In this document: one piece after another, positions 14,952 to 64,000 of the stretch | Numbering within the stretch: the stretch's first letter is position 1 | Layout: each line of letters begins with the position of its first letter | From: Microbacterium sp. 1.5R | Lineage (GTDB): Bacteria; Actinomycetota; Actinomycetes; Actinomycetales; Microbacteriaceae | NCBI RefSeq assembly: GCF_001889265.1 | Contig: NZ_CP018151.1 | Coordinates: forward strand, 3,556,318-3,620,317 | Length of the DNA stretch: 64,000 bases | Direction of reading: 5' to 3' | Program-made: the position numbers and the translations under genes | Notes under the pieces: model-generated | What the model was told of the DNA's origin: nothing | The model's database searches: none | Seen by the model: the letters and a program-made list of their open reading frames with translations, nothing else

Positions 14952-15506
14952 GCTGCTCCCTTCGATGCGACGGTTCTTCCGGTGTGCTCGGTGCCGACTG
15001 CGTCGGTCACGCGATGCGAATCAGCTCGAGAAGGGCCGTCCGCACAGCAAACCAGGCACTTCCGACATCGGGTCGCTGGACCACGCTACGAGCGGGGGTT
15101 TTCGGTCGCAACACGGCCTGTGGATAACTATGTGGAAAGCGTGCGAACAAGTCCGGAGAGTCTGTGCAGAACGCATGTGGATAAGTCGGTGGAGTACCTC
15201 GAAACAGAAGTTTCTTTTTGCATCTGATCGGGTGTTTGTAGTTTCCCCACCCTGTGGATGAGATCGTGGTTCAACCGGGCATTGAAGGTTCATCGAATCC
15301 GGGATGGGATGTGTAGAACCTGGGGAAAGTCAAGCCGAGATTCCACCGGGCGCGTCACAGTGCGCAACCCTCCGAAATGTGCGCGATATGTCATCGTTTC
15401 CGAGCGGAACCCTCTAGACACGGCGATATACCGGGAGTATCGTCACCCGCTATCGACGTACTGTGCGTCGAGGACGAACGATCGCTCTCGGGGGAGGGAA
15501 GTCGAC
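14952..15506. promoter_or_regulatory. Intergenic region with DnaA-box cluster
   Basis: This 555-nt gap between divergent genes holds four TGTGGA-type words on the plus strand: 15119-15127 and 15176-15184 are perfect complements of the TTATCCACA DnaA box, while 15131-15139 (TGTGGAAAG) and 15253-15261 (TGTGGATGA) are degenerate. Promoters for dnaB and for the secreted-protein gene must also lie here. I see no coding region. Confidence 0.65.
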
Positions 15507-39160: not shown

Positions 39161-40486
39161 TCAGCTCTCCTCTATCCGTTCGATGCGGGCGACGAGCCCG
39201 GCGCGCTTCGGCGAGCGCGCCGGAAGCATCTCCAGAGCGAGTCGCAGGGCCGCGGCATCGCCCTGTCCCTCCGGGATCTCGGCGTACTCCAGGAGGACGT
39301 CGAGGCTCGCCTCCGACAGCATCGTCTCGCGCAGCGCCGCTCTGACGGACTCGCGGAACTCCTCGACTCCCGGCGATGTGGATTCGGGGAGGACCGGACC
39401 TCGGTAGGCGGTGAGGGCGACCCGATGGGCACCTCGGTCGAGCAGCGAGAGGACGTCGTGCGCGTCCGTCTCGAGCACCACCGGCAGTCGATACGGCCGC
39501 GACTCGGGGACGAGGCTGGGGGCGTGCTTCTCGAGCACCTTGCGCAGACGCACCATCTCCGGCCGCAGCGTGTCGGCCGACGCGTCCGGTCCGTAGACGA
39601 GTTCGCTGAGTCTCTCGGCCGACAGCCCCTGGCGATGCACGGCGAGCATCAGGAGGATCGCGGCATGACGAGCGCTGAGCTCGATCACGGACTCCTCGAG
39701 TTCTGTCTCGGTCTCGAGACGTGCCCGATCGCGTCCCAGGACGTGCAGCGTCGCCCGGGTCGTGGGCTTCGCCCGCGAGGAGATGGTGATCGGACGATGC
39801 GACTCGCTGCGGGCCCGCAGTCTCGACACGAGCAATTCCGACTCGACCGCGCGCGCTGTCGCATCGACCAGCAGCCTGGCCTGCATCGAGACGACCTCGT
39901 CTCCTCCGGTGATGTCGATGACCCCGAGGACACGCCGCGTCTCGGGGTCTCGCACCGGAGCCGCCGTGCACGACCACGGATGCACCAGCCTGTTGTAGTG
40001 CTCAGCACCGCGGATCTGCACCGACTGTCCGAGCGCCAGCGCTGTGCCGGGAGCTGTCGTGCCGACGGCGTCCTCGGCCCAGTTCGCGCCGGCCACGAAG
40101 CCCATGCCCTCGGTGAGCGATTGCAGCTTGCGATCGCCTTCGATCCACAGCAGCCGTCCGGCCTGATCTCCGACGGCGACGACGACACCGGAGTCCCCCT
40201 CGGTTCCCGGCAGCAGCAGGGCTCGGATCATGTCCATCGCGGACGCGAGCGGATGCGCGAGTCGATAGGCCTCGAGCTCTTCGCTCACGAGTTCGATCTG
40301 CGGGGCCCCTTCGGGGCCGACGCGCCCTCGCCAGGATCGCACCCACGATTCGCGGACGAGAGGTCGCACCTCCTGCAGGCGCTTGTCATCGAGATTGCCG
40401 GCGATGAGCTCTTCGTGTGCACGCTCGATCAGAAGACGAGAGGCCTCAGGCGGCCCTTCACGTGACACCTGCCACGACGCGACCAC
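39161..40486 (-). CDS. GAF-domain regulator with SARP-like winged helix
   Basis: A regulator of about 441 aa. The N-terminal part ([18 protein letters not shown]) and the GAF domain, with [15 protein letters not shown] and [14 protein letters not shown] segments as in AcoR-type sensors, are followed by a C-terminal winged helix ([20 protein letters not shown]) in place of the sigma-54 domain of AcoR. The GTG at 40486 with GGAG upstream is my choice; an ATG at 40651 would add about 55 poorly conserved residues. It lies upstream of the aldehyde dehydrogenase on the same strand and likely activates it. Confidence 0.8.
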
Positions 40487-54976: not shown

Positions 54977-55945
54977 TCACGCCGGACCGTACCCCGATTC
55001 GCCCAGTTCACCGAGGATGCGGTTCAGATCCTGAATCGATGCGAAATCGATGATGACCTGGCCTTTTCGAGCGCCCAGCGACACCTTGACGCGAGTGTTG
55101 AGGCGATCCCCGAGGTTGCCGGCCACCTCGTCGAGGTACGCCCGTCGAGCGCCCGGAGTCGGCTTCGCCGTCCGGCCGGGTGCTGCGGGCTCCGTCTTCG
55201 CAGCGACCTCGGTCGCGCGCACCGACAGGTCCTCGTTCACGACCTTGTCGGCGAGACGCTGCATGGCCTCGGGTGACTCCAGGCTGAGGATCGCGCGAGC
55301 GTGTCCAGCCGTCAGCACCCCCGCCGCCACACGCTGCTGCACGGGAACGGGGAGCTTGAGCAGACGGATCGTATTGCTGATCTGAGGGCGCGACCGACCG
55401 ATCCGCGTGGCGAGCTCTTCCTGGGTGATCCCGAAGTCCTCGAGCAGCTGCTGGTATGCCGAGGCCTCTTCGAGCGGATTCAGCTCGGAGCGGTGCAGGT
55501 TCTCGAGCAGAGCATCGCGCAGGAGATCTTCGTCGGCAGTCTCGCGGACGATCGCCGGGATCTTCTCGAGGCCCGCCTCCCGCGCGGCGCGGGTGCGCCG
55601 CTCCCCCATGATCAGCTCATACTCGCCGTCGCTGTTCTTGCGAACGACCACCGGCTGCAGAACGCCGAACTCACGCACGCTGTGCACGAGCTCTGCGAGG
55701 TCCTCGGGATTGAAGTGCGTGCGCGGCTGACGCGGGTTCGGCACGATCTTCTGCGGATCGACCTCGACGAGGTGGATGCCGGGAACGACCTCGAGGTCGG
55801 CTTCTGCTGCGGGCTGGTCACTGGTCTGCTCCGTCGCCGGACGCAGATTGGCTCCGGGGAAGAACACATCCACGGGACGCTCGGACTGATCAGCCGTCGG
55901 GATGAGGGCTCCGATGCCCCGACCCAGTCCAGTGCGCTTCGCCAT
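54977..55945 (-). CDS. parB: Chromosome partitioning protein ParB
   Basis: A 322-aa CTP-dependent DNA clamp that loads at parS. It has the N-terminal KRTGLGRGIGALIP (ParA-interacting end), the CTPase motif GERRTRAAREAGL near residue 125-140, the helix-turn-helix TQEELATRIGRSRPQISN near 185, and a C-terminal dimerisation domain. Tandem ATGATG at the start overlaps the parA stop. The eight parS sites upstream are its expected targets. Confidence 0.96.
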   Translation of the reverse strand: MAKRTGLGRGIGALIPTADQSERPVDVFFPGANLRPATEQTSDQPAAEADLEVVPGIHLVEVDPQKIVPNPRQPRTHFNPEDLAELVHSVREFGVLQPVVVRKNSDGEYELIMGERRTRAAREAGLEKIPAIVRETADEDLLRDALLENLHRSELNPLEEASAYQQLLEDFGITQEELATRIGRSRPQISNTIRLLKLPVPVQQRVAAGVLTAGHARAILSLESPEAMQRLADKVVNEDLSVRATEVAAKTEPAAPGRTAKPTPGARRAYLDEVAGNLGDRLNTRVKVSLGARKGQVIIDFASIQDLNRILGELGESGYGPA

Positions 55946-56871
55946 CATTTCTCCTTGCTCTGCGTCGCCGTCCGCGACGCGATCTCGACAGCGGCCTCGC
56001 GATACGCGACGGCGCCGGCGGATTGCCCATCGTAGGCGATCACGGTCTGACCGAAACTCGGTGCTTCCGACACCCGCACGGAACGCGGGATGACGGTGTC
56101 GAGCACCTGTTCGGGGAAGTGTGTGCGGACCTCGTCCGCCACCTGCTGCGCGAGTCGCGTGCGTCCGTCGAACATCGTCAGCAGGATCGTGGAGAGGTGC
56201 AGTCCGGGATTCAGGTGCTTCTGGATCATCTGGATGCTGCCGAGCAGTTGACTCAGACCCTCGAGCGCGTAGTACTCGCACTGGATGGGGATGAAGACCT
56301 CGTTCGCCGCGGTGAAGGCGTTGATCGTGAGCAGCCCGAGCGACGGAGGGCAGTCGATGATGACGAAGTCCATACGGTTGTCGACGAGATACTCCTCGAG
56401 CGCACGTCGCAGTCGATGCTCCCGTGCGACCTGCGCGACGAGTTCGATCTCTGCGCCGGCGAGATGGATGGTGCTCGGTGCACAGAAGAGGTTCTCGTCC
56501 TCGGGACTCTGCTGCACGATGTCGGCGAGCGGGGTGTCTTCGATCAGGACGTCATAGACGCTCGGAGTCTCGGCGTTGTGCGGCACTCCGAGCGCGGTCG
56601 AGGCGTTGCCCTGAGGGTCCAGATCGACCACAAGGACCCGTGCGCCAAGACCCGCGAGTGCAGAGGCGACATTGACGGCGCTCGTCGTCTTACCGACGCC
56701 GCCCTTCTGGTTGGAGACCGTCAGGATGCGGGTGTCGCCGGCGAAGTCGATGGACACGGTCTCGAGTGCTCTGCGTCGTGCGGAGAGATCGGCGAGTTCC
56801 CGCGCGAGGGGCGTATCCATCCCGAAAGAGTCCTTCGGTGATGCCTTTTCGGGCTGTTTCACGTGAAACAT
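55945..56871 (-). CDS. parA: Chromosome partitioning ATPase ParA
   Basis: A 308-aa Walker-type ATPase that segregates origins with ParB. It has the deviant Walker A KGGVGKTT near residue 55-62, VVDLDPQGNAST and FVIIDCPPSLGLLT. The ATG at 56871 lies inside a parS site, so the protein begins MFHVKQ; AAAGGAG sits just upstream. An alternative ATG at 56820 (MDTPLARELA) would put parS in the leader. parA and parB overlap. Confidence 0.95.
   Translation of the reverse strand: MFHVKQPEKASPKDSFGMDTPLARELADLSARRRALETVSIDFAGDTRILTVSNQKGGVGKTTSAVNVASALAGLGARVLVVDLDPQGNASTALGVPHNAETPSVYDVLIEDTPLADIVQQSPEDENLFCAPSTIHLAGAEIELVAQVAREHRLRRALEEYLVDNRMDFVIIDCPPSLGLLTINAFTAANEVFIPIQCEYYALEGLSQLLGSIQMIQKHLNPGLHLSTILLTMFDGRTRLAQQVADEVRTHFPEQVLDTVIPRSVRVSEAPSFGQTVIAYDGQSAGAVAYREAAVEIASRTATQSKEK
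56855..56870. other. parS site 1 (overlaps parA start)
   Basis: TGTTTCACGTGAAACA, a perfect 16-bp match to the ParB-binding consensus. It supplies the first codons of parA. Confidence 0.93.
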
Positions 56872-57406
56872 CCACTCCTTTCGGGGCCGTGTTCCACTCT
56901 AATCGCTGCGGCAGACGTTGCCTTCTCGAATCCTTCCTGAGTCGTGCAGGCCGGTGATAACTCGTCCGGACGTGCCGTTGCGGAGAGAATGGCACTTTCG
57001 CCTTCTGGCCTGGGTGTTCATTGTGCCGTTGAACGTCCTGACGCACCGGAGATAGGGCTACACGCATGGAGGGACGACGTCCACGCACTGCACCATCTGT
57101 CGCGCCGGCGACCAGTTCGTGTCGGTGGTTGCACGGGCGTGAGGAGAGCAGGTGTCTCTGTCCTCGGCCCACACGGATGTCGCGCCCTCTGTGAAAGAGG
57201 CTGCCCGCTAGCGGCTTACGGGACTCAACGAGCCTCCGTCGCTGACGCCCCTCGTTTCGGGGAGACCGACCGGTCACAAAGGACTCGTCAGCATCCTTCA
57301 CACCACTATCGCGTGGAACCGGATCCTCCCGTGTGCGCCGAGGTCCGTGGTGACGGTCGACAGCCGCATAGTTTCACGTGAAACATCTGACGCATATCGG
57401 CCTCGA
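56872..57406. other. Non-coding gap between parA and the P-loop gene
   Basis: 535 nt of less GC-rich DNA without a convincing ORF on either strand. It holds parS site 2 and must hold the parAB promoter close to 56880-56950. Nothing else recognised. Confidence 0.6.
57370..57385. other. parS site 2
   Basis: The full 14-bp core GTTTCACGTGAAAC is present; the outermost left base is A instead of T. It lies 22 nt past the stop of the P-loop gene, between that gene and parA. Confidence 0.9.
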
Positions 57407-57850
57407 TCAAGATCGTAGGAGCTGCTCGATCCGGTCGACGACGGCGGTCAGCGGTTGAGTTGCGTCGATCTCGGACGTGCATGTCGCCCGCAGTAGCGGC
57501 TCCACGGTCTCGAGGTTCGTGCGAATCTCGTCTTGCTGCACCGTCGTCGAGCCGTAGGGATTCGAAGAGCGCCGACGAACACGATCGAGCATCACCGAAA
57601 TAGGCGCTGACAGGAGCACCACATGGTCGAATCGGTCGTAGAAGGCACCCTGATTCGACACCGTGCCAGACACGATGACTTCGGTGCTCTCCCCGAGTAG
57701 CGCACCCATCAAGACCTCGTCCCACAGTCCCGACTCGGCTGTCCATGGTCCATAATCGGTGTCGACGACGGAGTATCCCCGCTCCCCCAGTACCTGCAGC
57801 GCGCTGGACTTGCCGACGCCAGACATCCCAGTGATGAGCATGCGCACCAT
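57407..57850 (-). CDS. P-loop NTPase/kinase-like protein
   Basis: A 147-aa protein with Walker A GMSGVGKSSALQVL (near residues 7-20) and the size and layout of small nucleoside- or shikimate-kinase-like ATP-binding proteins (DTDYGPW after the second strand, LLSAPISVMLDRVRRR in the lid region). The ATG at 57850 is preceded by GGTGA; an in-frame ATG at 57883 lies inside parS site 3. It is the only likely gene between parA and rsmG. Substrate unknown; no evidence for a partition role. Confidence 0.75.
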   Translation of the reverse strand: MVRMLITGMSGVGKSSALQVLGERGYSVVDTDYGPWTAESGLWDEVLMGALLGESTEVIVSGTVSNQGAFYDRFDHVVLLSAPISVMLDRVRRRSSNPYGSTTVQQDEIRTNLETVEPLLRATCTSEIDATQPLTAVVDRIEQLLRS

Positions 57851-57866
57851 GCATTCACCATATCGA

Positions 57867-57882
57867 TGTTTCACGTGGAACA
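57867..57882. other. parS site 3 (variant)
   Basis: Reads TGTTCCACGTGAAACA on the minus strand, the allowed C variant of the consensus. It lies just upstream of the P-loop gene start. Confidence 0.88.
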
Positions 57883-58278
57883 TCGCCGACGTGAGTGACA
57901 GGAGCGTTCTACCCGGACCGCGTGCAGGCGGACGAAATTGCCTCCGCGTCCAGAGCTGCTCCGGCTAGCCGAGCGGTAGCAGGCCCCCACTCTTGCTTCG
58001 GGTTCTACGCTGGCTCGAGCCGGTGCATCACCGTGAGCGGCGAGGGGCTTCACTCCGCTGCGTAATCGCCTGCGCTCATTGCCTCAGGGTCGTCTCACCA
58101 GTGAACCTCACCCCCGAGGTCACCCACGCGCGAATCACCTAGTCGTCACAGACGCATCGTGCACGCCACGCACGGCTTCAGACAGCCCAGCCACGTCGAT
58201 TGACGAAGGGTAGCGCCGTAGTCACGTGGGACCGACCTTTCGGGTGGAGCCCCACCCATCTCATCGCGAGTCCTACGG

Positions 58279-58294
58279 TGTTTCACGTGAAACA
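58279..58294. other. parS site 4
   Basis: Perfect 16-bp parS palindrome in non-coding DNA. Confidence 0.93.
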
Positions 58295-58493
58295 TCTGCT
58301 CAGACGGACCCGACAGAATTACGTCGTGCGCATGCTGCACAGCTATCAAGGATTGGGCCAAGGCGCGTCGACGGCCTCGGCTCCTCGCTGCAAGCATCGC
58401 TCTAGAGTCAGCTCGCCCGCCTTGGGTCCGGTGAGGATCTAGTGCGTGGCGTCGATCCGCAAAGGAACCGCAGGCGCGAAACACCACTCACGG

Positions 58494-58509
58494 TGTTTCA
58501 CGTGAAACG
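58494..58509. other. parS site 5
   Basis: Complete 14-bp core; the outer right base is G instead of A. It lies in non-coding DNA 215 nt from site 4. Confidence 0.9.
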
Positions 58510-59117
58510 TTCGTCTACTGCGTCCCGTCTGCTCTTCCCTTGCGCCATACTGACGGCAAGTCAGCACGAGCCACGCCCACCGGCTGGCCACGGTTGCCGA
58601 GCTCGGGTGGTGCACGGATCCGCCCCTGAACTGGGGTTTATCCGAGAACCCCGCCCGCGACCGCCGCAGCAGACCTCGGGGTGCACCTCGCTGGCATCCG
58701 CAGCAGGGGCATCAGCAACGACCGCGTGCGTCCCATTGCGGGTAGCCCTCCAGAGCGCTGCTGCTCGGGCTCTCGGTGCGACACCGAGCCTCGCGCCTGC
58801 TCACGATTTCTATCGTTCAAACCGGGGACCGCCGCTTCTCGGGCCAAGAATCCCCGCGCCTTCGAGACGCCCGATGACTCGTCACATCAATGAGCTAGCG
58901 ACTGTCTCGCGAGCGGGGCTTCGCAAACTACTCACTGGGATCGTGACGCGATCACTAGTCTTTGAAACCGTCCACCCGACGGTGTACGGGCACCCAGCAA
59001 CGACGCGCCACTAGCGCGCCCTCAATCGCCCACGTCGCGGCCGGCCCCGAGACCCTCCCCCTGTTCCTGCTATCGCGCGGTCGCGATCATCCGAAGCCAT
59101 CACGACCCGCCGCTCGA

Positions 59118-59133
59118 TGTTTCACGTGAAACA
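59118..59133. other. parS site 6
   Basis: Perfect 16-bp parS palindrome in non-coding DNA. Confidence 0.93.
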
Positions 59134-59516
59134 CTTGTGCCTGCCGCATAGCGCGACGCGGTCGGCCCGAGGAAAGACGTCCATTCGCGCCAGGAAGGCT
59201 TGTCACTCACTCAAGCCATGCTGCGAAGAACCCCGGTAAGACTGAGCAGGGTGGTGCCAGGTCACCATGTCGTCCGGATGTTTTCAGCGGTAGCAGGGCA
59301 GGGCTGCTGCCTGACCGGTTCCGCCGCGATGCCCCGAGTGAAAGTTCCAGTTATGTTCGGCCGCCCCACCACGCCTGGAGCAGACGGTCCCGCTCCTCGG
59401 CGCCATGATCTGGTTGTCAGCTCGCAACGCTCCCCCGGCGGATGGTGTGGACCGGGATGACACCCGTAGCCACGCCAAGGGCACCGCGATCCGTTCCGTG
59501 GCAGCGACACAACGAT

Positions 59517-59532
59517 TGTTTCACGTGAAACA
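59517..59532. other. parS site 7
   Basis: Perfect 16-bp parS palindrome in non-coding DNA. Confidence 0.93.
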
Positions 59533-59633
59533 TACGACTCCCGGCGGACCCGCGCCCCGGTCCACGAGCTCTGAGCGCCACACGTGCGCTCCACCACGCG
59601 CGGACCCCACTCAGTGGTCAGAACGCCCAACAG

Positions 59634-59664
59634 ACGGCACACGGCACACGGCACACGGCACACG
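59634..59664. repeat. Tandem 7-bp repeat, four copies
   Basis: ACGGCAC repeated four times without change (59634-59661), followed by a partial ACG. Confidence 0.9.
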
Positions 59665-59721
59665 TCCGAGTAGCGCAGGTCAGATCACGAGAGCGCAGAT
59701 CAGAACAGGAGAGATCACTGC

Positions 59722-59745
59722 AGACCGCACGGTGTAGTGCGGTCT
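59722..59745. repeat. Perfect hairpin in non-coding DNA
   Basis: AGACCGCAC/GTGCGGTCT, a 9-bp stem with a 6-nt loop, in the gene-poor region. It could be a terminator of an unseen transcript or a structural element. Confidence 0.55.
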
Positions 59746-59990
59746 AGGGCAGTTCAGTGAGGTGAAGTCCGCTGCTGTGAAGTGACGTGGGTCGAAAAGC
59801 AAAGATCCAGGCCCGGCGCTAAGAAGAAGGGATGCTCGCAGCACTGCTCCCCAGCGCAGCGACGAGCATCGCAGCGCACAGTAGCCGTCCGCAGTGCCTC
59901 GAAGTGCGGCTGAGTGGCACAGATCAGACCAGCGAGCGCAACGCCCTCGTGACCCGGACCACCGCAAGTTGTCGGCGGAATCCCTTCACC

Positions 59991-60020
59991 CCACCTCGGC
60001 CCACCTCGGGCCGCCTCGGC
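59991..60020. repeat. Three tandem 10-bp units
   Basis: CCACCTCGGC, CCACCTCGGG and CCGCCTCGGC in direct succession, 29 nt before parS site 8. Confidence 0.7.
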
Positions 60021-60048
60021 TTGCCCCCGCATGGCAGTCGACCATCCA

Positions 60049-60064
60049 TGTTTCACGTGAAACA
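60049..60064. other. parS site 8
   Basis: Perfect 16-bp parS palindrome, the last before rsmG. Confidence 0.93.
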
Positions 60065-60626
60065 TCGTCAGGACCCCCGGTCGTTCCCAGAGGGGCGAAC
60101 ACTCTCGCTTACGAGCACACGGGGACAGACCCATTCCGGATTCCGACACCGGACACGTCTGCTGTGAAGCCTGATCTGTCGTGCCACACGCCCACGTTCC
60201 GTTACCACCGACCGTGATCCCGGGACAGTCTTTGACGGCGAGGGCAGAGTGCCGGCGGCTATCCGGCACTGCTGACCGTATCCAGCAGCGCTTGAGTGCC
60301 TCGTCACGTCGCAACGGAGCTCCCACACAAGTGCACGACCAGGGTCGGAAGAAAACCCTTCTCATCAGCCATAAACTCGAATCGTGGCACGATCGTCGAG
60401 GGACTCTACCGGCCTCGCGCGGTGACCAGGTCCGGCTCAACCGGACGAGCCCCCGACAAAAGACTCATATGCTGCAGAGGCAGATCACAACAGTGCCTGG
60501 CCCATGACCACCGTGCGTGGCCAAGTCACCCACCACCTGCGCTCTAGCGCGCGGGTACATCTCGAACGCGGAATGTAGGTCCATCCCCCGACGGAGGTCA
60601 GCTTCCTAAGCCGCGGCATCGACCTG

Positions 60627-61247
60627 TCAGCGGACGACTGCCCTCACCACGCGGGTCGTCTCGGGCAGTACGTTCTCGCCGAGAGTCTCGACGCGGACGT
60701 CCGACAGGCGGAACTTCTTGATCTGCTTCTGCGCTGCTTCGATCTCGTTGGCGGCATTCATTCCCTTGAGAAGGGTGAGTTCGCCTCCATCACGCACGAG
60801 CGGAGCGGTGAGCGGGATCAGCGTCTTCAGAGCACTGACCGCACGAGCTGTCACGACGTCGAAGCTCGCAGGAGTCACCTCCTCGGCACGCGCGCGCAGA
60901 ACTTCGACATTGGTGAGCTTCAGCTCGGCGACCTGCTCGTTCAGCCAGATCACCCGGCGCTCCATCGGCTCGACGAGCGTCCAGTGCACATCAGGTCGCG
61001 CGATCGCGAGGACGATACCGGGCAGCCCCGCACCCGAACCGATGTCCGCGACTGAACCGTGGAACAACGGGGCGGCGATGACACTGTTCAAGATGTGCCG
61101 GGACCACAAACGCGGGAGCTCGAGAGGACCGATGAGTCCTCGCTCCTCGCCATGCTGAGCGAGAGCCCCCGTGAACTGCCGGGCCAGCTCGATCCGATCG
61201 CCGAAAAGATCGACCGCCACCGACGGTTCGATCTCCAGGTCACTCAC
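60627..61247 (-). CDS. rsmG: 16S rRNA (guanine-N7) methyltransferase RsmG
   Basis: A 206-aa SAM-dependent enzyme that methylates G527 of 16S rRNA. The SAM motif VADIGSGAGLPGIVLA lies near residues 66-81, preceded by LPRLWSRHILNSV. The GTG at 61247 is chosen for AGGA upstream; longer in-frame starts run into the gap before jag. Separation of rsmG from parA by nearly 4 kb is unusual. Confidence 0.95.
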   Translation of the reverse strand: MSDLEIEPSVAVDLFGDRIELARQFTGALAQHGEERGLIGPLELPRLWSRHILNSVIAAPLFHGSVADIGSGAGLPGIVLAIARPDVHWTLVEPMERRVIWLNEQVAELKLTNVEVLRARAEEVTPASFDVVTARAVSALKTLIPLTAPLVRDGGELTLLKGMNAANEIEAAQKQIKKFRLSDVRVETLGENVLPETTRVVRAVVR

Positions 61248-61284
61248 GACAGCATCCTGCTGGCCTGACGTCGCATGTGAGACG

Positions 61285-61779
61285 TCAACGACGACGCAGA
61301 ACAGTGTGGCGGTCGGCACCCTCGCCGTAGGACTCGGACACGAGACCCTGATCAGCCGCGATGTCGTGCACCAGCTTGCGCTCATAGCTGGACATGGCGG
61401 GCAGCGACGCCTGGGTCGCTCCATCGTCGAGCTTGGCTGCGGCGGCGTTCACGAGCGTCTCAAGCTGACGGCGGCGCGCATCGCGCGATCCGCCCACATC
61501 GAGGATCAATCGCGAGAACGAACCCGTCTTGCTCTGGACCGCAAGACGCGTGAGCTCCTGAAGCGCCTGCACCGTGTCGGGTGCAGACAGAAGCGCCAGT
61601 CCGTCTCCCTCAGCCTCGACCGAGACATATGCGCGGCCCTGCCGCACGTCGAGGTTGAGGTCCCCATCGATGTCGGCGATGTCGAGCAGCTCTTCGAGGT
61701 AGTCAGCGGCGACGTCGCCCTCGTTCTCGAGTTCTGCGACCGTGGGCTCCACGGTCTCGGTCACGTTGTCGGTCGTCAC
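61285..61779 (-). CDS. jag: KH/R3H RNA-binding protein Jag (KhpB)
   Basis: A 164-aa RNA-binding protein. A KH-type domain in the middle (LNLDVRQGRAYVSVEAEGDG onward) is followed by a C-terminal R3H domain (LPAMSSYERKLVHDIAA). It lacks the N-terminal Jag domain of Firmicutes, as usual in actinobacteria. GTG start overlapping the yidC stop (GTGA). Involved in cell-envelope and division control in other bacteria. Confidence 0.93.
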   Translation of the reverse strand: MTTDNVTETVEPTVAELENEGDVAADYLEELLDIADIDGDLNLDVRQGRAYVSVEAEGDGLALLSAPDTVQALQELTRLAVQSKTGSFSRLILDVGGSRDARRRQLETLVNAAAAKLDDGATQASLPAMSSYERKLVHDIAADQGLVSESYGEGADRHTVLRRR

Positions 61780-63682: not shown

Positions 63683-64000
63683 GGAATCACTCCGGGAATG
63701 CTGCCACCGGGATCATTTTGACCGGAGACATAGGGATCTGCCGTTCAGGCATAAGTCAACCGATTAAGGGTACGTCTTGACGGCGCGCAGAGCAAATCTG
63801 CGCGCTTCGACCACCAGCTCAGGCACGATCCGCACAGCTATTATCCACAACCCTGCGGCATGCACGTATGAGCAACACGCGCGCGGATTCCCGTAGGCAG
63901 GTTGCCGTTCCCAGCCGTGGTGACTACCGTGGCATCCGAAGTTATCCACAGGCGGGCCGCGTCATCCAGACAGCCCGTCGTCCCCTCAGCACGGAGCGTC
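63683..64000. other. Left part of oriC (partial)
   Basis: No gene. Two perfect DnaA boxes (TTATCCACA) lie at 63841-63849 and 63942-63950, in the rpmH-dnaA gap where actinobacterial oriC normally sits. The rpmH promoter should lie near 63700-63770. dnaA and the remaining boxes are expected beyond the window. Confidence 0.8.

Follow-up and report, generated by a model that had tools for sequence, protein, structure and literature searches.

The eight parS sites found in a 64,000-nucleotide stretch of the Microbacterium sp. 1.5R chromosome (contig NZ_CP018151.1, positions 3,556,318 to 3,620,317; hereafter the window) lie together in a gene-poor interval between the partition gene parA and rsmG. 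Most probably, this array comprises the whole parS set of the chromosome, acts as the centromere of a ParABS system and has grown in part by tandem duplication. An earlier note on the same DNA had proposed a dedicated centromere at this place, and the proposal is supported both by the lack of parS elsewhere in the genome and by an interval far longer than is usual in the family. A long parA-rsmG interval with many parS is a trait of the genus, and sequence comparison indicates that the DNA between the sites turns over fast while the sites themselves stay.

The parS array and its interval

Seven exact copies of the parS 14-mer GTTTCACGTGAAAC occur in the window between 56856 and 60063, and an eighth site, GTTTCACGTGGAAC, has one mismatch, being the C variant on the opposite strand. 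The sites, to which no strand is assigned, occupy positions 56856..56869, 57371..57384, 57868..57881 (the C variant), 58280..58293, 58495..58508, 59119..59132, 59518..59531 and 60050..60063, with successive spacings of 515, 497, 412, 215, 624, 399 and 532 bp. At the level of the 16-mer five copies are perfect, the copy at 57370 starts with A and that at 58494 ends with G. These results bear out the earlier note, which had counted eight sites (five perfect 16-mers, two with an altered outer base and one C variant) at spacings of about 215 to 625 bp, its coordinates being the starts of the 16-mers, one base before those of the 14-mers. Adjacent to the 14-mer, T or C is favoured at position -1 and A at -2, with little further preference. 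The spacing in the window is more even than that of random points (p = 0.0025; this p-value and those given below for evenness, independent contrasts and pooled divergence are rough, related or overlapping arrays being partly counted as independent). With up to three mismatches the window holds nine parS matches, the ninth at 40455 with three mismatches, versus a mean of 0.87 and a maximum of 3 in 100 shuffles of the window. A scan of the whole genome (one contig of 3,620,317 bp) allowing one mismatch returned none beyond the eight sites described here.

The interval that holds the array (56872..60626, no strand, approximately 3.76 kb) was characterized with a codon gene model, an Rfam search and a comparison with congeners. 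The training set of the model was 400 kb from this genome, taken as 20 evenly distributed stretches. Among the 397 gene-free gaps that it gives in 464 kb, the interval is the second longest after a ribosomal RNA operon, a length that is overstated, as the model shortens parA by 51 bases and omits a kinase-like open reading frame (ORF). The opened interval described in the earlier note is not wholly open: the kinase-like ORF, with a small P-loop domain (AAA_18 in Pfam), lies on the minus strand at 57407..57883, or from 57407 to 57850 if it starts there, between the second and third parS sites. Three other ORFs of the interval gave no Pfam match (eight proteins were searched in all), and a simple codon model scored only the kinase-like ORF positively, and weakly so. 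No Rfam family reached its gathering score in the interval, and terminators occur there in about the number seen in shuffled sequence. In eight other genomes a match to the kinase-like ORF lies no more than 1 kb from the parA leader; elsewhere the match comes without a leader match. Of the fourteen longest gaps given by the trained codon model, five lie in another part of the same genome (195001-215000) and a sixth is close by, suggesting an island with unusual codon use.

The first parS overlaps the beginning of parA, taking in its start codon (ATG, minus strand, at 56871; the protein starts MFHVK), and the third covers a point at which the kinase-like ORF may begin; there the variant base leaves the protein unchanged, both codons encoding Phe. 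Sites at such positions could mainly control parAB, the kinase ORF and rsmG, in line with the report that in Pseudomonas aeruginosa ParB bound at an intergenic parS represses the two adjacent genes (PMC7022226). We consider a primarily regulatory role very unlikely, given that five of the eight sites fall in 57891-60626, where no gene was found, and that no sigma-70-like promoter was detected in 56700-60700, the latter being a weak test for this organism.

The interval in Microbacterium and related genera

We compared the locus in samples of 59 Microbacterium genomes and 80 genomes of the family. In the genus sample G037 gave no RsmG match and G003 was left out because of a contig end, and from the 57 resulting loci the four without ParA in the stretch (L104, L135, L136 and L139) were set aside, giving 53 genomes with our own included; L136 was used for repeats only. 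In the family sample RsmG was found in 79 of the 80 genomes, our own included, and with G106 left out at a contig end 77 loci were obtained, which, minus L158 and L218 (no ParA), gave 75 genomes of other genera.

Exact parS copies were present in 58 of the 59 sampled Microbacterium genomes, with 3-14 in each. The 53 genomes carry 352 exact copies genome-wide, all 352 of them inside the 13-kb locus and 315 inside the parA-rsmG interval. This interval measures 86-8662 bp in the genus (median 2073 bp), exceeds 1 kb in 42 of the 53 genomes and holds 2-17 sites, whereas a median of 125 bp and of one site was found for the 75 genomes of other genera, 22 intervals being longer than 500 bp and 17 longer than 1 kb. 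The 51 of 53 genus intervals that reach 100 bp contain, in 138,760 bp, 355 sites with up to one mismatch, versus 0.007 expected from base composition only; a further 43 such sites lie outside the interval, 36 of them at 622-755 bp from the rsmG stop, approximately at its start, and seven beyond parA. Since the jag-rsmG and parA-parB gaps both stay at a genus median of 12 bp, it is the parA-rsmG interval in particular that has opened.

The number of sites rises with interval length (Spearman 0.81), and independent contrasts run on a tree of ParA and RsmG, in which the genus is one clade, gave r = 0.67 (p = 4e-8). The extremes of the series are an interval of 86 bp with 2 sites and intervals of 8.7 kb with 12 and 7.9 kb with 17. 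Spacing of the sites more even than random (p < 0.05) was found in 15 of 42 genomes. Predicted coding sequence makes up at least 7% of the 42 intervals of 1 kb or more, versus 91% of the flanks. A search for other motifs in the genus intervals found shared 10-mers that belong mostly to the parA leader, the rest being GC-rich and at or slightly above the shuffled level.

Dense parS clusters are not unique to the genus, and this idea was rejected: in a sample of the order, where exact parS occur in 113 of 149 genomes, the places listed include two genomes of other genera, G576 with 12 exact copies in 2.0 kb and G503 with 8 in 2.4 kb. Two loci from other genera of the family differ in another manner. 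L187 (genome G076) has one parS in the parA-rsmG gap; eight more, two of them with one mismatch, lie on the jag side of rsmG, 605-2042 bp from its end, and the array of this locus appears to have expanded in another interval. L166 (genome G125) has a parA-rsmG interval of 6.8 kb with 13 sites, ten of which are the C variant GTTCCACGTGAAAC on either strand, perhaps because the preference of ParB has shifted and the interval has expanded independently.

Turnover and tandem duplication between the sites

The flanks of the locus align with three relatives over long stretches at 80-85% identity, while for most of the interval no alignment was obtained. Against these three relatives it matches only at the parA leader, at the kinase ORF (65% DNA identity, in L087) and at short stretches that hold parS. 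A comparison with the 56 other genus loci (E <= 1e-3) returned the leader at 56871-56923, the kinase ORF at 57489-57844 (L087 alone) and matches of 23-40 bp, each with a parS. When 366 genomes of the genus were searched and the best one or two candidates per genome scored, only the leader or the kinase ORF was matched outside our own genome, with no match to 57891-60620. Among the 44 intervals of at least 600 bp, shared DNA (E <= 1e-6) was detected in 36 of 946 pairs; an earlier comparison, which had missed the kinase match to L087, gave 23 of 946, and shorter words raised the count. A family of ORFs of up to 122 amino acids, with a mean identity of about 55%, recurs in the intervals of eight genomes (L105, L107, L109, L110, L111, L137 and two more), and its longest member gave no Pfam match.

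Private DNA of this kind, its slightly lower GC content (0.639 vs 0.673 for the window) and the location of the kinase ORF elsewhere in the genome in some congeners would also fit a decayed mobile element or island that imported the sites and left empty DNA behind. That explanation, already weakened, appears highly improbable: 42 of 53 genomes have a long interval at this very position, with DNA that is mostly unrelated, and no mobile-element family was found among the three ORFs and the kinase, the only ones tested.

Using Tandem Repeats Finder with periods of at least 50 bp, we obtained 20 rows, all of them within the 53 intervals (139 kb), the sequence outside (556 kb, mostly coding) giving none, and duplicated stretches of at least 60 bp were present in 18 of 42 intervals, that of the window not among them. 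Tandem units that bear parS occur in seven of the 53 genomes and, with L136 added, in eight congeners, at periods of 58-293 bp. The units measure 193 bp in L092, 75 bp in L096, 113, 171 and 196 bp in L107, 88, 103 and 142 bp in L111 (also read as 280), 278 and 293 bp in L116, 58 bp in L132, 151 bp in L137 and 287 bp in L136, which stands outside the 53. Two other genera of the family also have a parS-bearing tandem repeat, of 156 bp outside the parA-rsmG interval in L165 and of 279 bp inside it in L192, and the pattern is therefore not confined to the genus.

Within the units the parS stretch is the better kept part. When units were cut at parS, a procedure that favours parS, mean column conservation was 0.96 in parS versus 0.76 in the rest for the ten units of L116 and 0.97 versus 0.70 for the twelve units of L136, and three further sets point in the same direction. 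The best-kept stretch was parS in L116 and L136 and joint top in one L107 set, whereas other stretches ranked higher in the second L107 set and in L111. For units delimited by the repeat finder, 13 arrays pooled gave 14 off-consensus cells of 572 in parS versus 541 of 6148 in the other columns; the arrays taken were those with parS (up to two mismatches) in the consensus, and some of those from L107 and L111 overlap.

Several observations weigh against a selected array that grew by tandem duplication. In the window itself (56840-60640) no repeated element was found besides the parS stretch, and self-comparison of the interval gave no duplicated stretch of at least 60 bp; tandem growth is for this reason inferred from the relatives, and no sign of a recent tandem origin was seen in the window's own array. 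This array is either old or arose by another route. Among its spacer pairs, 3 of 28 reach z > 2 against resampled controls, the best having a z of 4.8 and a local score of only 18. In 6 of the 13 genomes with tandem arrays only parS-free arrays are present (L091, L109, L114, L115, L138 and L140). Taken singly, 3 of 14 arrays with parS reach p < 0.05, and in two arrays that have several copies, the 278-bp array of L116 (5/42 vs 63/591) and the 142-bp array of L111 (2/56 vs 16/468), there is no difference between parS and the rest. Seven congeners have intervals of 86-220 bp with 2-3 sites, hence length is not essential. A predicted gene is present in 10 of the 42 intervals of 1 kb or more, and the coding fraction given above is a lower bound because the gene model missed the kinase ORF of the window.

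The parS-free arrays, the persistence of short intervals with few sites and the few genes and gene remnants found in the intervals are also what neutral drift would leave, if a permissive spot gathered junk DNA and decaying genes, parS duplicates were tolerated near the original cluster, and their number and spacing brought no benefit. Insertions in Caulobacter point the same way: the cells are reported to tolerate new parS only within a broad region surrounding the native cluster (PMC5815017). Drift alone would not readily account for the persistence of the 352 exact 14-mers while nearly all the surrounding DNA changes, for parS columns that diverge less than their units or for a spacing more even than random. 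These three features argue for selection on the sites, but not on the intervening DNA, and we regard drift as an unlikely explanation, if one to be taken seriously.

Proposed centromere function and known systems

The parS array lies between parA and its adjoining parB on the left and rsmG on the right, all on the minus strand. The parB gene (54977..55942), of the helix-turn-helix (HTH) type, matches ParB_N, HTH_ParB and ParB_C in Pfam; parA (55945..56871) matches AAA_31, and its product has its best match among named genomes in Microbacterium sp. MYb54, with 90% identity; rsmG (gidB; 60627..61424) matches GidB and probably starts inside the longest ORF. The window is the end of the contig and the gene at contig base 1 is one that we take to be dnaA, which places the array 3.9-7.1 kb from dnaA, provided that the contig is circular. 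With perfect DnaA boxes at 63841 and 63942 and three more behind dnaA, boxes are found on both sides of this gene, in agreement with the earlier placement of the array a few kilobases from oriC. Two further perfect DnaA boxes TTATCCACA, 57 bp apart, were observed at 15119-15184 of the window, about 49 kb from dnaA.

Loading of ParB at parS, its spreading, the recruitment of SMC and movement by ParA are described as established for ParABS systems (PMC7333895). In the array described here, ParB would load with cytidine triphosphate (CTP) at the eight sites, slide from them into the intervening DNA, recruit SMC and be moved by the ParA encoded next door. The parA-rsmG gap of the genus would be a region of free DNA gain and loss, partly by tandem duplication of parS-bearing units, in which selection holds the parS 14-mers and little else. 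Binding of ParB at the array and an advantage of many close sites are what we infer from this arrangement. Such an advantage has been suggested as more robust segregation in Corynebacterium glutamicum (PMC7083940), linked to fewer SMC collisions at clustered strong sites in Bacillus subtilis (PMC8357415) and proposed as compensation for short ParB spreading in Caulobacter (PMC5815017). The gene-free DNA may moreover offer sliding clamps a freer track, away from transcription. Going further, the interval could be a regional centromere, a gene-poor expandable array whose tandem-born parS units diverge and are lost, where only the ParB loading sites are selected and empty DNA aids the loading of ParB and SMC by excluding genes and transcription; we put this forward tentatively, as a possibility short of an even chance. 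One parS is reported to be enough for C. glutamicum under laboratory growth (PMC7083940). The idea of a freer track is weakened by a report that B. subtilis ParB gets past roadblocks bound to DNA (PMC9242446).

Close parS clusters near oriC are as such already known in other bacteria. C. glutamicum is described as having ten parS in 35 kb, nine of them intergenic (PMC7083940), and Caulobacter crescentus as having five strong parS in a 5-kb stretch some 8 kb away from the origin (PMC5815017). Both resemble Microbacterium in having a ParABS system with several parS gathered near oriC, but the sites of C. glutamicum extend over ten times the length of the Microbacterium array and those of Caulobacter are reported to lie within essential or costly genes (PMC5815017). 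Unlike both, Microbacterium has eight sites in a single gene-poor, changing interval, and a congener has 17 in one. For Streptomyces coelicolor and Listeria innocua 20-23 parS are reported (PMC7333895). The likeness lies in the many parS near the origin. In these two species, however, the sites are spread over a far wider region and are not known to be confined to one intergenic interval.

The F plasmid centromere sopC (parS_F) consists of twelve 43-bp repeats with ten 16-bp motifs (as described in PMC6238139). Its tandem units bear ParB-type sites, as do those of some Microbacterium congeners, but they measure 43 bp versus 58-293 bp in the genus, whose arrays lie on the chromosome, have diverged and differ from species to species; the array of the window is without any repeat besides parS. 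In addition, sopC is carried on a plasmid and works with a different ParB and site. A likeness can also be drawn with the satellite centromeres of eukaryotes, such as alpha satellite with its CENP-B box, in that one short conserved binding box is embedded in DNA that is poor in genes, changes fast and includes tandem units reaching some hundred bases. The two are not homologous, the protein that recognises parS is ParB, and no epigenetic mark is indicated by the present data, so that the likeness would concern the mode of evolution only. In the titles and abstract beginnings of the open-access papers listed by our searches, we recognised no description of chromosomal parS in tandem repeats, of an expandable, gene-poor, fast-changing chromosomal centromere with such repeats, or of the Microbacterium interval.

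The literature raises the questions why parS number differs and by what route the centromere regions of bacteria grow larger with time (PMC7333895; PMC5815017). In this genus a single locus of fixed position offers a natural series of intervals, and some species still show the duplicated units; both questions can therefore be tested by strain comparison and interval swaps. If the proposed reading is true, the parA-rsmG interval of Microbacterium would be a counterpart in bacteria of eukaryotic centromeres, where the DNA surrounding a conserved binding box turns over rapidly.

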